From NCBI GenBank assembly GCA_017625675.1, contig JAGAKK010000052.1, positions 1-50,224 on the forward strand: a stretch of 50,224 bases of DNA, read 5' to 3'. The notes under the pieces were generated by a model. That model saw only the letters and a program-made list of their open reading frames with translations, had not been told where the DNA came from and searched no databases. The stretch's first letter is position 1. Each line of letters begins with the position of its first letter. Below are positions 21,348-42,477 of the stretch, piece by piece. The DNA comes from Clostridia bacterium (GTDB lineage Bacteria; Bacillota; Clostridia; UBA1212). The translations under genes and the position numbers were made by a program.

Positions 21348-22532
21348 TCAGTGATGGAAAAGTCTCATCTTTGTAAATGCCATTGCAATGCCGTGCTTAT
21401 CACAGGTTGCAATAACATTGTCATCTCTTATTGAGCCGCCGGGCTGTGCAATATATGAAACACCGCTCTTTGCCGCACGCTCTACGTTGTCGCCAAAGGG
21501 GAAGAACGCATCGCTGCCCAAGGAAACACCCTTGATCGTAGCAAGGTACGCTTTCTGCTCCTCTCTTGTGAAGGGCTCAGGTCTCTCGCTGAAATATTGC
21601 TGCCATACGTCATCACCGAGAACGTCCTCGGGAGTGTCTGAAAGGTAAATATCGATAATGTTATTCTTGTCAGGTCTGCCCACGTTCTCAGCAAACTTAA
21701 GGCCGAGCACCTTGTCGTGCTGTCTGAGATGCCACAGGTCTGCCTTCTGTGCCGCAAGTCTTGTGCAGTGAATTCTTGACTGCTGTCCTGCGCCTACGCC
21801 GATAGCCTGTCCGTCATAAGCAAAGCAAACTGAGTTTGACTGTGTGTACTTAAGGGTAATAAGGGCGATAACGAGATCCTGCTGTGCCTCAAGGGGCATC
21901 TCCTTGTTCGCTGTTACAACGTCCTTCAGAAGATCGTAATCAATCTTGAAGTTGTTTCTGCCCTGCTCAAAGGTAATTCCGTAAACCTGCTTCGTTTCAA
22001 GCTCTGCGGGAACGTACTCAGGGTCAATCTCAACCACGTTATATGAACCTTTTCTCTTTGTTTTAAGTATTTCAAGTGCCTCGGGAGCATATCCGGGGGC
22101 AATGACACCGTCGGAAACCTCTCTTGCAATAATCTTCGCAGTAGTTACGTCGCAAACGTCACTAAGCGCAATCCAGTCGCCGAAGGAAGACATACGGTCC
22201 GTACCTCTTGCCCTTGCGTAAGCGCAAGCCAGAGGAGACTCGTCAAGTCCCTCAATATCGTCAACGAAACAAGATTTTTTAAGCTTGTCGCTGAGCTTCT
22301 TTCCTATTGCCGCAGCGGTAGGGCTTACGTGCTTAAAGGATGCGGCACAGGGCTCGCCCAAAGCTTCCTTGATTTCCTTTACAAGCTGCCAGCTGTTGAA
22401 GGCATCTAAAAAGTTGATATATCCGGGTCTTCCGCAGAGAACTTTGATAGGAAGCTCTCTTCCGTCGTTCATATAAATTCTTGAAGGCTTCTGATTAGGG
22501 TTACAGCCGTATTTAAGTTCCAATTCAGTCAT
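21348..22532 (-). CDS. Stand-alone AICAR formyltransferase (PurH transformylase domain)
   Basis: A 394-residue enzyme transferring a formyl group from 10-formyl-THF to AICAR, giving FAICAR. It corresponds only to the C-terminal transformylase half of bifunctional PurH: LKYGCNPNQKPS at the N-terminus, the catalytic Lys-His pair in SFKHVSPTAAA, GAGQQSRIHCTRLA, and SDAFFPFGDNVERA. The usual N-terminal IMP cyclohydrolase domain is absent. The next gene upstream, 15 bases away, is a PurO-type cyclohydrolase that supplies the missing step. Confidence 0.93.
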   Translation of the reverse strand: MTELELKYGCNPNQKPSRIYMNDGRELPIKVLCGRPGYINFLDAFNSWQLVKEIKEALGEPCAASFKHVSPTAAAIGKKLSDKLKKSCFVDDIEGLDESPLACAYARARGTDRMSSFGDWIALSDVCDVTTAKIIAREVSDGVIAPGYAPEALEILKTKRKGSYNVVEIDPEYVPAELETKQVYGITFEQGRNNFKIDYDLLKDVVTANKEMPLEAQQDLVIALITLKYTQSNSVCFAYDGQAIGVGAGQQSRIHCTRLAAQKADLWHLRQHDKVLGLKFAENVGRPDKNNIIDIYLSDTPEDVLGDDVWQQYFSERPEPFTREEQKAYLATIKGVSLGSDAFFPFGDNVERAAKSGVSYIAQPGGSIRDDNVIATCDKHGIAMAFTKMRLFHH

Positions 22533-22547
22533 TTTTTTACATTCCTC

Positions 22548-23273
22548 TCATTTATTTTTATTGATGATAATTTCTTTAGCTTCACTTCCGTCAAGGGGAA
22601 TCTCACGAACAAACAAAGAAACCTTGTTGTCCTCGTTAAGGTTGCTCCAAAGGATATCTGCAAGCTCTTCTGCGCTGTCAGGCATTGCAACCTCTTCCGG
22701 CTCTCCGTAGAAAGAAGGGATAGGATTTCCGTCGCATTTATATGTGTGGATAAAGTGACCTACGCCTGCCTCGGGAGTGTAGTTGTAAAAATAGCGGTTA
22801 CAAACGGGTCTTCCGTTAGCGCTCTTAAGAATTGAAAGCTTGTAGGTAAAAGCATTTCTCGGGAAACTGTAATAAAGCGCCGCAGAAATTCTGGGAGTGT
22901 AGTTGGGGAAATCAGGCTCGAATTCTCTTGTAGCAAGAGAGTTTTCAAAGGCATTGAGATCGCCCTTCTCCATAAAGTCAAAGATCGTATTCGTCTGGTC
23001 ACCGTTGGTAACGATGTCAATGTTTCCGCCCTTAGCGCTGAGGTAAGGATTGTAGATAATGAGGCTGGGGTCGGAAAGCTTGCTTTCGTCAAAAGCCTTT
23101 GTTCTCATACCGCCCTCAAATCTCTCGAAAACTCTGTTGCGGCTGTTTTCGCTTCTGCCCATTATAAAGTAACCAATGAGCGCCTTCTTTCCGTCAGCAG
23201 ACGTTCCCACAACGATTCCTCTTCCGGGGTAGGAATTTTCACTGAGCAATTTCTTTATATCAAATAAAGCCAT
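22548..23273 (-). CDS. IMP cyclohydrolase, PurO-like
   Basis: A 241-residue protein of the PurO/IMP-cyclohydrolase-like family first known from archaea. It would close FAICAR to IMP, the last step of purine synthesis. Family marks are YPGRGIVVGTS near the N-terminus, MGRSENSRNRVF, NGDQTNTIFD and PNYTPRISA. It is immediately upstream of an AICAR transformylase that lacks a cyclohydrolase domain, which strongly supports the role. The ATG has AAGGAGAG seven bases upstream. Confidence 0.88.
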   Translation of the reverse strand: MALFDIKKLLSENSYPGRGIVVGTSADGKKALIGYFIMGRSENSRNRVFERFEGGMRTKAFDESKLSDPSLIIYNPYLSAKGGNIDIVTNGDQTNTIFDFMEKGDLNAFENSLATREFEPDFPNYTPRISAALYYSFPRNAFTYKLSILKSANGRPVCNRYFYNYTPEAGVGHFIHTYKCDGNPIPSFYGEPEEVAMPDSAEELADILWSNLNEDNKVSLFVREIPLDGSEAKEIIINKNK

Positions 23274-29398: not shown

Positions 29399-29427
29399 AT
29401 TTTACTCAATTTCAATTGCCCCGTCAA
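29399..29427 (-). promoter_or_regulatory. Promoter of rubrerythrin, inside the end of pdp
   Basis: The minus strand has TTGACG (29422-29427), a 17-nt spacer and TAAAAT (29399-29404); the -10 box contains the pdp stop codon. No PerR-like operator was recognised. Confidence 0.55.
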
Positions 29428-30670
29428 GCAGTTCTTCCGCCTCGGAAAAATCATTTTTCACAGAAGAATACAATTTTGCGATGACTTCTCCCTCTTTAAC
29501 ATTGTCTCCCGTCTTCCTGCAAATTATCAGCCCTGCAGAAAAATCTATGGGATCACCCTTGCGAAGCCTGCCGGCGCCGAGAACCACACCGGCTTTTCCG
29601 ATGCTCTCAGTATTCATTTTCGTTATCATACCGCTTTTTTTAGCCTTGTACTCACCGCAGTACTCCGCCTTGCAAAAAGAATCAATGTCCTCAAGGAAGG
29701 ACAAATCTCCGCCCTGGGCCTTTATCCAGCCGCAGAAAGTCTCAAAAGCCTTGCCGTTAATGAGATTTTCCTCGCACCTGCGCCTTGCCTCTTCCAAGGG
29801 CATATCAAAGCACAACGAAACTATATTTTCAGCCAGCTTCAGGCAATTTTCCCTGAGATCCGAAAGCTCCTCACAGCCCTTATCGTTTCTGAGCAGTTTT
29901 ACAGCCTCTTTGACCTCCAAAGCACAGCCGATAGCCTGTCCCAAAGGCACGTCCATATCAGAAATAATCGCAGCGCATTTCTTCCCGCAGCCCTTTCCTA
30001 TAGAAACCATACAATCCGCCAGCGTCCTGGCATCGTCGTAAGTCTTCATAAAAGCACCGCTGCCGCATTTGACGTCAAGGACGATAATATCAGCTCCTGC
30101 CGCCAATTTCTTCGACATAATACTTGACGCAATCAAAGGAACACAGTCCACCGTAGCAGTTACGTCCCGCAGCGCGTACAATTTCTTATCTGCCGGCGCA
30201 AAATTTCCGCTCTGTCCTACAATGGCAATGCCTTGCGATGCCACCACGTCACGAAACTCCTGTTCCGAAAGCTCCGTGCAATAGCCCGGAATCGACTCCA
30301 GCTTGTCAACCGTGCCGCCTGTATGGCCCAGCGCTCTTCCTGACATTTTTGCTCCGATACACCCCAATGAAACCACCAAAGGAAGCACTACCAGAGAGGT
30401 CTTGTCGCCAACGCCGCCTGTGCTGTGCTTATCCACGGCCTTGCCGCCGTAACACGAAAGATCCGCCTTTTCACCGGAGTCACGCATAGCCTCTGTGAGA
30501 ATCACGGTCTCCTCTTCGTTCATGCCGTTAATACATATTGCCATAAGGAGCGCCGCCGACTGATAGTCCGGTATCTCGCCGCTTGTAACGCCTTTTACCC
30601 AGAATTCTATCTCCTCACGGGACAATGCCTCTTTTTGTTTTTTCTTCTCAATAACGTCATACATCAGCAT
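29402..30670 (-). CDS. pdp: Pyrimidine-nucleoside (or thymidine) phosphorylase
   Basis: A 422-residue enzyme cleaving pyrimidine nucleosides with phosphate to a base and (deoxy)ribose 1-phosphate. The phosphate-binding KHSTGGVGD is at 81-89, and GRALGHTGGTVDKLE follows. It lies 19 bases after deoB-cdd in a salvage operon that handles every step from nucleoside to pentose 5-phosphate. The start may be the ATG at 30670 or one two codons in (30664). It is closer to Pdp than to DeoA by length and context; the distinction is not certain. Confidence 0.9.
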   Translation of the reverse strand: MLMYDVIEKKKQKEALSREEIEFWVKGVTSGEIPDYQSAALLMAICINGMNEEETVILTEAMRDSGEKADLSCYGGKAVDKHSTGGVGDKTSLVVLPLVVSLGCIGAKMSGRALGHTGGTVDKLESIPGYCTELSEQEFRDVVASQGIAIVGQSGNFAPADKKLYALRDVTATVDCVPLIASSIMSKKLAAGADIIVLDVKCGSGAFMKTYDDARTLADCMVSIGKGCGKKCAAIISDMDVPLGQAIGCALEVKEAVKLLRNDKGCEELSDLRENCLKLAENIVSLCFDMPLEEARRRCEENLINGKAFETFCGWIKAQGGDLSFLEDIDSFCKAEYCGEYKAKKSGMITKMNTESIGKAGVVLGAGRLRKGDPIDFSAGLIICRKTGDNVKEGEVIAKLYSSVKNDFSEAEELLDGAIEIE

Positions 30671-30689: not shown

Positions 30690-32309
30690 TCAATTCAGAT
30701 TTTTCTTCCCAAAGCCTTTCGGAAGAAGCTCCGAAAGGGAATATCTTTTTATTTCATCATTGCCATCAGAAGAAGTAAGAAGCACCTTCAACTCTTCCGG
30801 TTCTTCGCAAAACTCCGCCAAAAACTGCCGGCAAATTCCGCAAGGCGCACATTCAGACCCAAAATCTCCGTTCTTTCCGCCCACAACTGCTATTGCCTTT
30901 ATTGCACGGCGACCATCGCTCACTGCCTTTGACACAGCCACTCTCTCAGCGCACACGGTAGCCCCGTAGGACGCATTTTCCACGTTGCAGCCTGTATAAA
31001 TCTTTCCGTCTGCTCCCAAAGCCGCCGCTCCTACGTTAAACCCCGAATAAGGTGCGTAGGCATTATCGGCAGCATCCCGCGCCTTCTTAAGCAAGACGCT
31101 TTCTGTCAACGAATTTCCGTCGCAATCATATTTAACATCCAAAAGCTCAGCAACCGTAGCGGCAATATTGTCAAAGCCCTGCTTTGTCCCAAGATCAAGG
31201 ACATAAGGCCTTTTTCCGGAGCAATTTATCTCTCCGCCAAACATAATAAACGGCACGCATTCCCTGGTGTGGTCTGTTCCTGGAAAACCGGGGTCACAAC
31301 CGTGGTCTGCAGTTATCATCACCACGTCCTCGTCGCCAATGGCATCAAACAACTCAGGCAGCCACCTGTCAAATTCCGAAATAGCCTTGGCATATCCGTC
31401 AATGTCATTTCTATGCCCGTAGCTTGAGTCAAAGTCCACAAGGTTTATGAAGCACAGGCCCTCAAAGTCTTTCTTAGCATATTGCAACGCTTTCTCCATT
31501 CCGTCAGCATTTCCGCTTGTAGGAACAGCCTCCGTAATGCCCTTCCCTGCAAATATATCCTTGATTTTTCCCACAGATATAACACTTTTCCCCTGCTCTG
31601 AAATCATATCCAGCACAGTTTTTTCAGGGGGCTCCAAGGAATAATCGTGCCTTCGCGAGGTTCTCTTATAAGGATGCTCTCCCTCAAAAGGTCTTGCAAT
31701 TACTCTGCCCACAGAATTTTCACCCACAAGCATTTCCCTTGCAATTTCACAATACTCGTAAAGCTTTTCAACAGGCACCACGTCCTCATGGGCCGCAATC
31801 TGAAACACACTGTCCGCAGAGGTGTACACTATAAGCGCGCCGGTTTTCACGTGTTCTTCGCCGTAATCCTTGATAACCTCAGTGCCTGAGTAGGGCTTAT
31901 TGCAAAGAACTTTTCTTCCGGTACGGCGGGAAAACTCCTCTATTACATCATCAGAAAAGCCCTCCGGATACACGGGCAACGGCTTTTCCGAAACTATGCC
32001 GGCTATCTCCCAATGGCCTATGGTGGTATCCTTTCCCTTTGATTTTTCAACAAGGCGGCATACCGCTGACCCTTTTAAGCCTTTTTTGCAAAGTTCAGAA
32101 CTAATTTTTTCTGAATTCTCAAAAACGGCGCAGTCTGCCCCTTCTATCAAGGGCAATCCCAGCGCCGTCAGGTTCGGTATATTAAAAAAATCAGATCCGC
32201 TGACAGACCTTAACGTGTCAGCGCCTTTATCTCCGAAAGCCTCCGCATCCGGCGCATTGCCAATGCCGAAACTGTCCAGAACTATCAAAAAAATTCTTTT
32301 TACAGGCAT
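30690..32309 (-). CDS. deoB-cdd: Phosphopentomutase fused to cytidine deaminase
   Basis: One open frame of 539 residues with two complete enzymes. Residues 1-399 are phosphopentomutase: IFLIVLDSFGIG with metal ligand D12, DTTIGHWEIAG around the phosphothreonine, TADHGCDP and GTDHTRE. It interconverts pentose 1- and 5-phosphates. Residues about 400-539 are a full small-type cytidine deaminase: AYAPYSGFNVGAAAL, zinc ligands C453, C490 and C493 (VCAERVA with catalytic E455; PCGICRQ). The linker is only a few residues and no second start or ribosome binding site is needed. ATG 32307-32309 follows GGGGG. It sits between deoD and pdp, so cytidine can be deaminated, phosphorolysed and isomerised by adjacent products. 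Confidence 0.93.
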   Translation of the reverse strand: MPVKRIFLIVLDSFGIGNAPDAEAFGDKGADTLRSVSGSDFFNIPNLTALGLPLIEGADCAVFENSEKISSELCKKGLKGSAVCRLVEKSKGKDTTIGHWEIAGIVSEKPLPVYPEGFSDDVIEEFSRRTGRKVLCNKPYSGTEVIKDYGEEHVKTGALIVYTSADSVFQIAAHEDVVPVEKLYEYCEIAREMLVGENSVGRVIARPFEGEHPYKRTSRRHDYSLEPPEKTVLDMISEQGKSVISVGKIKDIFAGKGITEAVPTSGNADGMEKALQYAKKDFEGLCFINLVDFDSSYGHRNDIDGYAKAISEFDRWLPELFDAIGDEDVVMITADHGCDPGFPGTDHTRECVPFIMFGGEINCSGKRPYVLDLGTKQGFDNIAATVAELLDVKYDCDGNSLTESVLLKKARDAADNAYAPYSGFNVGAAALGADGKIYTGCNVENASYGATVCAERVAVSKAVSDGRRAIKAIAVVGGKNGDFGSECAPCGICRQFLAEFCEEPEELKVLLTSSDGNDEIKRYSLSELLPKGFGKKNLN

Positions 32310-32334: not shown

Positions 32335-33084
32335 TTATTTTCCGTCAATTCTCTTTGCTGTTTCCAGCGCAATTTTCATCATATCAGTAAAAGTATTCTG
32401 TCTGTCCTCTGCGCAAAGTGACTCTCCTGTAACAACGTGGTCCGAAATAGTACATATCGCCAAGGCTCTCTTGCCTGCCCTTGCCGCATTCATATAAAGG
32501 CCTGCGGCCTCCATCTCCACAGCCATAACACCCATTTTGCCCCACAGCGCCGTACCTCTCCTGTTCTCAGGAAGATCACCGTCGTCACCGTAAAAAGCAT
32601 CTGACGAAAGCAAATTGCCCACGTGATATTTTACACCAAGCTCTTCGGAAATATCCGCAGCAGTTTTCAGAAGCTCATAGCTGGCAATAGGCGCAAAAGT
32701 ACCCGGCAGGCCGTAATGATCAGCGTATGCAGACGTAGTGCAAGCGCCTTGCCCCAGAACCACGTCCCTGACCTTTATATCCTTGCTCATAGCCCCTGCA
32801 GAACCGATTCTGATAATATTTTTCACGCCGAAAACGTTGTACAACTCATAGCTGTATATACCAATGGAAGGGATCCCCATTCCGCTGGCCATAACACTTA
32901 CACGGACTCCGTCATAATATCCTGTATATCCCTGAATTCCGCGCACGTTGTTCACCAAAACCGCATTTTCAAGAAAATTTTCCGCAACGAATTTCGCTCT
33001 CAAAGGATCCCCCGGCATAAGCACCGTCTCAGCAAAATCCTCCGGTTTAGCGTTAATGTGCGGTGTAGGATAAGAAATACCCAT
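32335..33084 (-). CDS. deoD: Purine nucleoside phosphorylase, DeoD type
   Basis: A 249-residue hexameric-type phosphorylase cleaving purine nucleosides to base and ribose 1-phosphate. It shows VLMPGDPLRAKFVAE, SGMGIPSIGIYSYEL, RIGSAGAM, VEMEAAGLY and the base-binding SDHVVTGE. ATG 33082-33084 follows AAAGGAG; a GTG three codons upstream is too close to it. It is the first gene of the nucleoside salvage set and lies 40 bases after the DUF4956 gene. Confidence 0.95.
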   Translation of the reverse strand: MGISYPTPHINAKPEDFAETVLMPGDPLRAKFVAENFLENAVLVNNVRGIQGYTGYYDGVRVSVMASGMGIPSIGIYSYELYNVFGVKNIIRIGSAGAMSKDIKVRDVVLGQGACTTSAYADHYGLPGTFAPIASYELLKTAADISEELGVKYHVGNLLSSDAFYGDDGDLPENRRGTALWGKMGVMAVEMEAAGLYMNAARAGKRALAICTISDHVVTGESLCAEDRQNTFTDMMKIALETAKRIDGK

Positions 33085-33123
33085 ATAAGTCACTCCTTTT
33101 TATAGATTGTCAGCATTTTCCGC

Positions 33124-35052: not shown

Positions 35053-35535
35053 TTACTTGATCACTTCGTCAACAAGCTCACGCACCGCACCACGGCCGCC
35101 GTTTGCCTTGCAAACGTATTTTACGGCCTGTCGCACTTCCTTCACAGCATCTGCAGGACACGCAGTCAGCCCGCAATATCCAATGCAATCAATGTCATTA
35201 ACGTCGTCACCTATGTACGCAATCTCCTCAGCAGAAGCACCGTACTTCACCGCAACCTCTTTCAGAACAGAAAGCTTGTCGGAAACGCCCTGATAACACT
35301 CTTTTATCTTCAGATCCTTTGCCCTGGCAGCCACAATCTCAGAACTGCGACCTGTAATAATCACAGGCGTAACGCCTATCTTGTCAAGGGTCACAATGGC
35401 ATACCCGTCCTTTATATCAAAGGCCTTCATAAGCTCGCCGTTTGCCCCCATATAAATATGTCCGTCGGTAAGAGTTCCGTCAACGTCCATCACCAGAAGC
35501 TTTATATTCTTTTTATTAGTTCCTGAAAAATTCAT
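35053..35535 (-). CDS. kdsC: KDO-8-phosphate phosphatase
   Basis: A 160-residue HAD-superfamily phosphatase without a cap domain, as in tetrameric KdsC. The nucleophile D17 and D19 lie in MDVDGTLTDG, the Thr/Ser motif in VIITGRSSEIV, and the metal-binding aspartates in YIGDDVNDID. It removes phosphate from KDO 8-phosphate. Its ATG overlaps the kdsD stop (ATGA). It is the last gene of the KDO set. Confidence 0.9.
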   Translation of the reverse strand: MNFSGTNKKNIKLLVMDVDGTLTDGHIYMGANGELMKAFDIKDGYAIVTLDKIGVTPVIITGRSSEIVAARAKDLKIKECYQGVSDKLSVLKEVAVKYGASAEEIAYIGDDVNDIDCIGYCGLTACPADAVKEVRQAVKYVCKANGGRGAVRELVDEVIK

Positions 35536-36509
35536 CTTACAATACCCGCCTTTAAAATATCCTGCATAAGCACAGTTCCCGCCACAGCCCCCTGCTCATC
35601 AAGCACGGGCATACAAGTAATATGCATATCATTCATTTTCTGGAGCGCATTTACTGCCATCTCCGCAGAATTTATAAACTTAGGATTCTTCGTCATATAA
35701 TCATCAACAGTAACGTTGTACACATCAACGCTCTTCTCAAGCATTCTCCTGAGATCTCCGTCGGTAATAATGCCCAGAAGCTTTCTATTATCGTCAATAA
35801 TGGTTACCATGCTAAGGCCCTTGGTACTCATCTCCACGATAGCGCTTCTTAGCGTACTGCCTGTCAGAATTTCAGCGTTGTCATCACCTGTATGCATAAT
35901 GTCGCTCACTTTTACAAGAAGCGTCTTTCCCAACGTCCCTGCAGGATGATGCAAGCCGAAGTCTGCCTTGGTATAATTTCTCGCCCTTGAAGAAACCACC
36001 GCCAATGCATCTCCCAACGCCAAAAGCGCCGTAGTGCTACTGGTAGGCGCAAGGTGCATATAGCAAGCCTCCTCCATCTCCGGAAATTCGTAATTATATT
36101 GGCAGCCCTTTGCCAAAGTTGATCTGATGTTTCCTGTAAGGCCAACTGTGACACAACCAATCTCGCGAAGCACAGGCAGAAGCTGTGTAACCTCCGTGCT
36201 CTCACCGCTGTGGCTCATAAGAAAAACAACGTCCTTCTTTTCCACCATTCCCAGGTCACCGTGCATTGCCTCGCCGGGATGCATAAAAAAGGCAGGCGTA
36301 CCAAGGCTTGCAAAGGTAGCAGCAATTTTCGTGCCGATGTGTCCCGGCTTTCCCATGCCGGTAATGACCACCTTACCCTGGCAGTTAAGAACCAATTCCA
36401 GCATAGTCCTGAACTCCTCGCCAAGGCTGTCCCTCACCTTTTCAAGGGCAATTATTTCCTTATCTATAACGCTTTTCGCCTCTTTTACAACGTCAAAATC
36501 AAGTGTCAT
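35532..36509 (-). CDS. kdsD: Arabinose-5-phosphate isomerase
   Basis: A 325-residue protein with an N-terminal SIS sugar-isomerase domain (VVITGMGKPGHIGTKIAATF, MHGDLGMV, MSHSGESTE, HLAPTSSTTA) and two C-terminal CBS domains (about 205-325). It makes D-arabinose 5-phosphate from ribulose 5-phosphate, the first KDO precursor. The kdsA stop and its ATG share one base (TGATG). Its ATG is at 36507-36509. Confidence 0.92.
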   Translation of the reverse strand: MTLDFDVVKEAKSVIDKEIIALEKVRDSLGEEFRTMLELVLNCQGKVVITGMGKPGHIGTKIAATFASLGTPAFFMHPGEAMHGDLGMVEKKDVVFLMSHSGESTEVTQLLPVLREIGCVTVGLTGNIRSTLAKGCQYNYEFPEMEEACYMHLAPTSSTTALLALGDALAVVSSRARNYTKADFGLHHPAGTLGKTLLVKVSDIMHTGDDNAEILTGSTLRSAIVEMSTKGLSMVTIIDDNRKLLGIITDGDLRRMLEKSVDVYNVTVDDYMTKNPKFINSAEMAVNALQKMNDMHITCMPVLDEQGAVAGTVLMQDILKAGIVR

Positions 36510-37279
36510 CACTGCACCGCCTCATAAACTTTTTTAAGCTTTTTAAGAAGCTCCTTCATCTCTCCCAAAGGCACCATATTAGGGCCGTCAGACTTTGCAT
36601 TATCAGGGTCCGGATGGGTCTCCATAAAGAGTCCGTCTGCACCAACTGCAATAGCCGCCTTGGCAAGATACTCAACGTAGCAACGGTTGCCACCTGTGCT
36701 GGTTCCGTTGCCGCCGGGCTTTTGCACACTGTGGGTAGCATCAAATATTACGGGCACACCGAAGTCCTTCATAACCCGCAGACCTGTCATATCCACAACC
36801 AATGTATTATACCCAAAGCTGGTGCCTCGTTCGCAAAGCATAACGTTGTCATTTCCTGACTGACGCACCTTTTCAAGGCAATTCTTCATATCCCAGGCCG
36901 CCAAAAACTGCGCCTTCTTAATATTTATGCACTTGCCGGTCTTCGCCGCAGCCACCAGAAGGTCTGTCTGTCTGCAAAGAAACGCAGGAATCTGCAATAT
37001 ATCTGCAACCTCTGCCGCAGGCGCCGCCTGCCATGCCTCGTGAATATCGGTGCAAACAGGCAACCCATAAGTATCCTTAACTTTCTTCAATATCTCCATG
37101 CCTTTTTCAATGCCGGGACCTCTGAATCCGTTAATGGAAGTACGGTTAGCCTTGTCAAAGGAAGCCTTAAACGTATAGGGAATCCCCAGCTCCTGGGTAA
37201 TGGCCTTCATCTCTGCGGCAATACTCATTACCATCTCTTCCGACTCAATGACACAAGGTCCTGCAATTAATTGAAACAT
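36509..37279 (-). CDS. kdsA: KDO-8-phosphate synthase
   Basis: A 256-residue aldolase joining phosphoenolpyruvate and arabinose 5-phosphate. It shows [70 protein letters not shown] and SDGPNMVPL. The start follows AAAGGAG. Upstream lies the decayed toxin-type element and then a truncated kdsB, so the original order was probably kdsB-kdsA-kdsD-kdsC. Confidence 0.93.
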
Positions 37280-41397: not shown

Positions 41398-42135
41398 CTA
41401 CTCCGCCAGACCGTTCTCAATCATATATCTCTCAACCTGCACCCTGTCCTTAGGAGTATCAACAGACAAGGTCTTGCAGTGTGCATTGATATAATAACAA
41501 TCCTTGCGGTTCTCAATAAATCTGAAGGAATCATTCTCCTCAATCTTCTCAATAGGTCCTCTGGGTGTCGCATGATAATACTCCAGCGCACCGTGTGTAA
41601 AAGCGCCGACACCTACAAACTTCTGATATGCATAGTTCATCTCGCCCTTAGGGAACGGGATAGGCGCACGTGAAATAAACAGGCAGATGCCGTCCTTATT
41701 CGTAACGATCTTAAGGTTCGTAGGATCCACCACCTCAACAGGGTTTGAAAAATCCGTCATAAGGTTTGACACGTAGAACCCATCCTCGGGAAGTTTCTCA
41801 GGAATACACTTCACAATGTCATCAGCCATTACCAAGGGCTCGTCCCCGTTAATCATAACGTAAAGGTCAGCCTCCACCTTGTGAGAAACCTCATACAAAC
41901 GCTCCGTAGCGGTTTCGCAATCCTTGGACGTCATAATAACCTTCGCGCCAAATCCCTCTGCCACCTCTTTAATTTCCTCGCTGTCCGTGGCAACGTAAAC
42001 CTCATCCAGCGCCGCAGCCTCTTTGCTGTGCTTCCAAACCCAATACACCATAGGCTTTCCGCAAATAAGCGCCAAAGGCTTGTTATTAAAACGAGTAGAC
42101 CCGCCTCTCGCAGGAATCATACCGATAATTTTCAT
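41398..42135 (-). CDS. kdsB: CMP-KDO synthetase (3-deoxy-manno-octulosonate cytidylyltransferase)
   Basis: A 245-residue nucleotidyltransferase activating KDO with CTP. The N-terminus GMIPARGGSTRFNNKPLA has the CTP-binding loop; VMINGDEPLV, SRAPIPFPKG and ETATERLYEV-type motifs follow the KdsB pattern. ATG 42133-42135 has GGGAG upstream. The 3' 228 bp is duplicated at 37690-37917. Together with kdsA, kdsD and kdsC it completes CMP-KDO synthesis, but it is now separated from them by a cassette of three genes. Confidence 0.87.
   Translation of the reverse strand: MKIIGMIPARGGSTRFNNKPLALICGKPMVYWVWKHSKEAAALDEVYVATDSEEIKEVAEGFGAKVIMTSKDCETATERLYEVSHKVEADLYVMINGDEPLVMADDIVKCIPEKLPEDGFYVSNLMTDFSNPVEVVDPTNLKIVTNKDGICLFISRAPIPFPKGEMNYAYQKFVGVGAFTHGALEYYHATPRGPIEKIEENDSFRFIENRKDCYYINAHCKTLSVDTPKDRVQVERYMIENGLAE
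41400..41627. repeat. Direct repeat, intact copy inside kdsB
   Basis: This is the partner of 37690-37917, at a constant offset of 3710 bases and in the same orientation, with five substitutions (37694, 37720, 37745, 37847, 37876 against the matching sites). Crossing over between the two would loop out the GT10, acyltransferase and dehydratase genes and restore kdsB next to kdsA. Confidence 0.9.
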
Positions 42136-42477
42136 GATAAACATCTCCCTTTTCCGCGGCTAATACACATCCGCACTAAAACTAATGATACTTATTTAAG
42201 TATATCGCAAAAACAGCACAATAGCAAGAAAAATTCCACATATAACGAATTCCTCTTTGTTTGAACATATCGTAACAAATAAATACAATCAAAGAGGGGG
42301 GAACTGCATCATGATTTAATAATTAAAAATTAATACGTATACTTTATCTCAAAAATTGTTTTACATAAGAATAAACACTGGCAAACATATTCTTTAATAA
42401 TATCTAAAAGATTAGTAAGCATTGTCGGTTCAACACCCCAAAAACTACATTAAGAGAAAGATCCAACCCTCCATTCA
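42136..42477 (-). promoter_or_regulatory. Gap with kdsB promoter
   Basis: The minus strand has TTGCTA (42222-42227), a 17-nt spacer and TATACT (42199-42204), a fair sigmaA promoter for kdsB-capE. CCTCTTTG (42252-42259) and CAAAGAGG (42290-42297) can pair around a 30-nt loop, but no T run follows, so a terminator for the operon on the right is doubtful. The remaining 150 bases are AT-rich with no gene. Confidence 0.5.

Follow-up and report, generated by a model that had tools for sequence, protein, structure and literature searches.

The closest described relatives of the protein considered here are stand-alone enzymes, namely, the phosphopentomutase (DeoB) of Bacillus cereus (3m8w and its relatives) and the tetrameric cytidine deaminases (Cdd) of Bacillus subtilis and Bacillus anthracis (1jtk and 2d30), the latter being translated from starts of their own. 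DeoD, DeoB, Cdd and Pdp jointly convert cytidine, uridine, thymidine and purine nucleosides into bases and pentose-5-phosphates, an established pathway (see also PMC13274396). In the tandem arrangement of other Clostridia (e.g. L011, L024, L065 and L078; L with a number denotes a locus and G with a number a genome of the comparison set), deoB and cdd are two distinct genes that frequently overlap by a few bases, with deoD upstream and, in many cases, pdp downstream. The window, that is, the whole stretch of 50,224 nucleotides that was analysed, has the same gene order and neighbours, but its deoB and cdd are fused, so that DeoB bears a C-terminal deaminase, whereas Cdd is devoid of a start methionine and a ribosome-binding site. 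To the initial annotation this fusion was not known as a described enzyme, and we likewise found no description of it in the openly accessible literature; a scan of the 539-aa protein against NCBIfam returned no bifunctional model. Each half is a standard enzyme, and their combination is an undescribed but simple variation.

The fused gene and its two halves

The gene occupies the minus strand of positions 30690-32309, the strand having been left unstated in the initial annotation, and consists of one uninterrupted frame of 539 codons, with the ATG at 32309 and the stop at 30690-30692; a plus-strand reading was ruled out, stops being present throughout. The original proposal of a single frame holding a full DeoB and a complete Cdd is thus borne out on the reverse complement, as is the position of the gene, which has deoD upstream and pdp downstream, each on the minus strand as well:

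29402..30670, minus strand: pdp, pyrimidine-nucleoside phosphorylase, the middle step (TIGR02644, 542.6 bits, cut-off 409)
30690..32309, minus strand: fused deoB-cdd gene, 539 aa (uninterrupted frame; each domain scoring above its curated NCBIfam cut-off; AF2 model)
30693..31109, minus strand: cytidine deaminase part, residues 401-539 (NF004064/TIGR01354; 1jtk and 2d30 matches; residue map)
31095..31121, minus strand: junction, residues 397-405, DGNSLTESV (comparison with tandem and fused relatives; AF2 model)
31107..32309, minus strand: phosphopentomutase (DeoB) part, residues about 1-401 (NF003766/TIGR01696; 3m8w alignment; model match; residue map)
32335..33093, minus strand: deoD, purine-nucleoside phosphorylase (NF004489, 342 bits; TIGR00107, 290 bits)

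The deoD gene, for which an ATG at 33084 is a more likely start than the listed GTG, lies 25 bases upstream of deoB-cdd in the same operon and on the same strand, and pdp follows 19 bases downstream, also on the same strand. The host genome (G000), of a gut-type Clostridia bacterium, is a MAG that comprises 88 contigs totalling 1.65 Mb; it is 76% complete and known from one assembly. Neither a second deoB or cdd (E <= 0.001) nor DeoC was found in it; an unbinned second cdd is possible. A search of nine genomes likewise yielded no second cdd.

The DeoB half (residues 3-403) matches NF003766 at 8.4e-150 (498.9 bits, cut-off 256), in agreement with Pfam, and TIGR01696 over its full length (451.8 bits vs a cut-off of 341.2), and its sequence aligns with that of the B. 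cereus enzyme 3m8w at 1e-111. In the AF2 model, this half adopts an alkaline-phosphatase-like fold with the phosphopentomutase cap and superposes on 3m8w with a Z of 40.6 (387 residues, 2.5 Å; Foldseek, VIA-align), the identity over the 387 aligned residues being 47%. Residues D12, T95, S164, D294, H299, D335, H336 and H347 are all present when mapped by alignment to 3m8w, and both the two-metal site and the phosphorylatable threonine (T95) are there; the metal-binding and phospho-acceptor residues are shared with the B. cereus enzyme. Apart from S164, these residues, whose roles we take to be those they have in the B. cereus enzyme, account for the metal and phosphothreonine motifs named in the initial annotation.

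The Cdd half (residues 404-538) matches NF004064 at 2.5e-42 (144 bits, cut-off 74), again in agreement with Pfam, and falls into the tetramer class (TIGR01354, 141.7 bits, cut-off 113.65); assignment to the dimeric, E. coli-type enzymes was rejected (TIGR01355, 77.3 bits vs a cut-off of 275; a single deaminase domain). Matches to 1jtk and 2d30 are at about 1e-28 each, and Foldseek searches with this half of the model retrieved the Cdd of B. subtilis, B. anthracis and mouse, the two bacillar enzymes matching over the full domain with 45-47% identity in the structure match and having the Zn-binding and catalytic residues in common with it. Alignment to 1jtk places the Zn and catalytic residues at C453, E455, C490 and C493 (CAE...PCxxC motif), exactly where they had been annotated, and the substrate residues at F424, N442 and E444; R456 and F533 were also mapped.

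Taken together, these similarities suggest, with a probability of roughly 0.85, a bifunctional enzyme of nucleoside catabolism with two independent sites, both predicted activities and fixed 1:1 production. The C-terminal Cdd half would deaminate (deoxy)cytidine to (deoxy)uridine, a separate Pdp would then free uracil and (deoxy)ribose-1-phosphate, and the N-terminal DeoB half would turn the latter into (deoxy)ribose-5-phosphate, with the two active sites acting independently. As assumed from the Cdd family, the deaminase half would most likely form the usual tetramer and hence carry four DeoB heads. The main effect would be a fixed 1:1 dosage of the cytidine entry enzyme and the common exit enzyme of nucleoside phosphorolysis; we infer both catalytic activities, the tetramer and this dosage effect for DeoB-Cdd. 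Escherichia coli lines without ribonucleotide reduction repeatedly acquired mutations in both deoB and cdd (PMC10121223), which fits a joint drain for deoxycytidine.

Two further gene sets of the window are of interest in their own right. A Kdo synthesis set (KdsC, a KdsD/KpsF-type protein, KdsA and a KdsB-like cytidylyltransferase) is encoded on the minus strand at 35053-37279 and 41398-42144 and adjoins surface-polysaccharide genes in a Clostridia-like genome, possibly for capsule Kdo. At 21348-23273, minus strand, the usually bifunctional PurH looks split into a stand-alone AICAR formyltransferase (NF005492, 677 bits) and an adjoining 241-aa protein without an NCBIfam match, which, at a guess, may be a PurO-like IMP cyclohydrolase.

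Occurrence, origin and fusion bias

After removal of identical DeoB sequences, the comparison set contained 29 loci with the fusion, 28 of them without an internal stop, and 60 loci with unfused tandem deoB-cdd genes; uninterrupted fusions are thus present in at least 28 related genomes. In the family of the window, uninterrupted fusions are also present in G004 and G005, and other cases occur in further Clostridia. Its distribution is patchy, with a concentration in certain gut Clostridia families: even sampling recovered 16 full uninterrupted spans and one partial span among 146 genomes of one family, four fusions among 150 genomes of another, three among 391 genomes of the class and, for the phylum under a strict cut-off, the window alone. 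Catalytic motifs are kept in nearly all fused homologues, and silent differences between fused relatives far exceed amino-acid-changing ones (for L167 and L174, e.g., pN 0.17 vs pS 0.50 in Cdd and pN 0.16 vs pS 0.63 in DeoB); therefore, both halves are under selection in the fused relatives.

Several loci depart from the common pattern. The fused gene of L003 (G007:C185), which belongs to the family of the window, carries an in-frame TAG at the deaminase catalytic glutamate (CA-TAG-RT vs CAERT), which is due to decay or a sequencing error, and the Cdd half of the fused gene in L185 (G675) has an insertion of ~48 residues between two conserved blocks. In a tandem clade (L011, L012, L022-L024, L027, L028, L030 and L063), DeoB is short by ~20 C-terminal residues, ending near 372-383 aa, with cdd directly after it. 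Long frames in G560 and G430, candidates for long-linker fusions, were rejected as separate ORFs.

Comparison with the relatives shows that the fusion derives from the tandem deoB-cdd pair of a deoC-deoD-deoB-cdd-pdp operon, a tightly spaced pair that lost the DeoB stop, the cdd start and its ribosome-binding site. On the DeoB tree (179 rows), the fused label amounts to 11 changes, at least seven of which are forced by well-supported branches, and on the combined DeoB and Cdd tree to 11 changes, three of them forced, where changes may be gains or losses. A single origin of all fusions was tried and rejected, the AU test refusing one clade (lnL 248 lower, p 8e-60), and the fusion arose more than once. 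For the window, a quick DeoB tree pointed to a separate origin; the AU test did not reject a grouping of the window with the main fused clade of 13 rows (p 0.72), the constrained tree being even better, and the fusion of the window may share its origin with this largest fused clade.

Operon junctions differ in their propensity to fuse. Fusion was observed in 28 of the 88 adjacent deoB-cdd pairs, a share that is inflated by sampling around a fused query and does not equal the natural frequency, in six of seven deoB-deoC pairs and in one of four deoB-pdp pairs; the zeros, which are not inflated, comprise deoD-deoB (0/75-76), cdd-pdp (0/46-47), deoC-deoD (0/44) and deoC-deoB (0/21). Genes at the deoD-deoB junction are spaced as tightly as in unfused deoB-cdd pairs (median gap of 7 nt vs 6 nt; overlapping genes at 20 of 76 vs 17 of 60 junctions) yet are never fused, and spacing therefore fails to account for the bias. 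All 35 fusions have DeoB at the N-terminus, whether the partner is Cdd, DeoC or Pdp. The in-frame fusions with DeoC (deoxyribose-phosphate aldolase), which measure ~615-636 aa, were found in L066 (4935-6842), L072 (4959-6851), L119, L122, L123 and L136, their label changing twice on the DeoB tree, and that with Pdp, of 838 aa, in one genome only (L124:810-3323, identical to L135). Like the fusion in the window, they join an N-terminal DeoB to an operon neighbour from the same pathway, but the partner differs and, unlike in DeoB-Cdd, the fused steps are consecutive.

These patterns bear on whether the fusion is beneficial at all. It could be neutral rather than favoured for dosage, i.e. a by-product of a tight operon in which stops are occasionally lost and the product is neither favoured nor disfavoured, an account that we regard as plausible, if not the one we prefer, given the repeated origins, the scattered distribution and the tandem sisters to most fused groups. 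Nevertheless, the contrast between 0 fused deoD-deoB and 28 of 88 fused deoB-cdd pairs implies a bias exerted by either selection or structural tolerance, with the caveat that fused deoB-cdd genes are over-represented in the sample. More tentatively, and in our opinion rather doubtfully, DeoB might be a favoured N-terminal fusion platform in Clostridia, which repeatedly captured the next nucleoside-catabolic neighbour (Pdp on one occasion, DeoC on two and Cdd on more than one), since joining a hub to an entry or exit enzyme would be advantageous, for example, in holding a multi-enzyme assembly. A role of the fusion in channelling substrate or in keeping DeoB, Cdd and Pdp together as a complex (metabolon) draws on the common pathway of all partners, the consecutive steps joined in DeoB-Pdp and DeoB-DeoC, the invariable N-terminal position of DeoB and the lack of fusion at the equally tight deoD-deoB junction, but is improbable. 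The initial annotation envisaged a coupling of the first and last steps of cytidine salvage; the first (deamination of C to U) and third (pentose-1-P to pentose-5-P) steps are indeed linked, but direct channelling is not expected, because Cdd and DeoB share no intermediate and Pdp, here a separate protein, acts between them.

The junction between the halves

In tandem relatives, DeoB ends in ...GxSFxxDIL(K)-stop and Cdd starts with MTDxELLxxA...Y(A/S)PYS. The corresponding stretch in the window, GNSLTESVLLKKARDAADNAYAPYS, accommodates the DeoB end and the Cdd start on shared residues: DGNSLTESV fits both the C-terminus of DeoB (GxSFxxxIL) and the N-terminus of Cdd (MTxxELL), and the conserved DeoB end (GNSL..VLL) coincides with the Cdd start (LTESVLLKKA). 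Even the few joining residues allowed for in the initial annotation were generous, the added linker being practically zero. The junction of the main fused clade is ~12-20 residues longer than that of the window (e.g. GKSFLRGILRPTETELALCKAAAEAREASYSPYS), and in L168 the start methionine has been replaced (DITDSKLL vs MTDHQLL or MTHGELM in the tandem sisters L065/L068). The AF2 model of the 539-aa protein is confident throughout (pLDDT 91.1, pTM 0.91), with the final DeoB helix (380-389) followed by an ordered loop and the Cdd helix 401-415, the blocks of this loop and helix having pLDDT values of 96 and 93.

It is quite unlikely that the gene yields two products, with free Cdd arising beside the fusion by internal initiation or proteolysis. 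In-frame TTG codons do occur near the ancestral cdd start, at residue 401 and 12 codons ahead of YAPYS, but without a Shine-Dalgarno-like motif, and a start with such a motif lies in front of Cdd in only four of the 29 fused genes, compared with 49 of the 59 tandem ones; furthermore, the ordered junction of the model is unlike an exposed flexible linker. Because only these TTG codons lacking the motif are available, the fusion is most likely the sole source of Cdd in the genome of the window, as judged from sequence. An assembly or sequencing artefact joining tandem genes through a miscalled stop or indel, i.e. the error near residue 400 envisaged in the initial annotation, can be set aside with considerable assurance: although the species is known from one assembly and in-frame tandem pairs parted by a single stop exist (L017 and L022), 27 other uninterrupted fusions are present in other Clostridia genomes, and the original spacer is lost from the merged junction, which a single wrong base therefore cannot produce.

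Implications

The fusion is a repeated physical link between cytidine deamination and pentose-phosphate release, steps that are also linked genetically in E. coli (PMC10121223). It represents a natural experiment on why the deoB-cdd junction fuses while an equally tight neighbour does not, and offers a natural bifunctional enzyme, with predicted activities, for nucleoside-synthesis cascades. Cytidine deaminase inactivates cytidine-type drugs. Annotation tools that assign a single name to each gene will overlook one of the predicted activities of DeoB-Cdd, and gut Clostridia may be wrongly scored as cytidine deaminase-negative.
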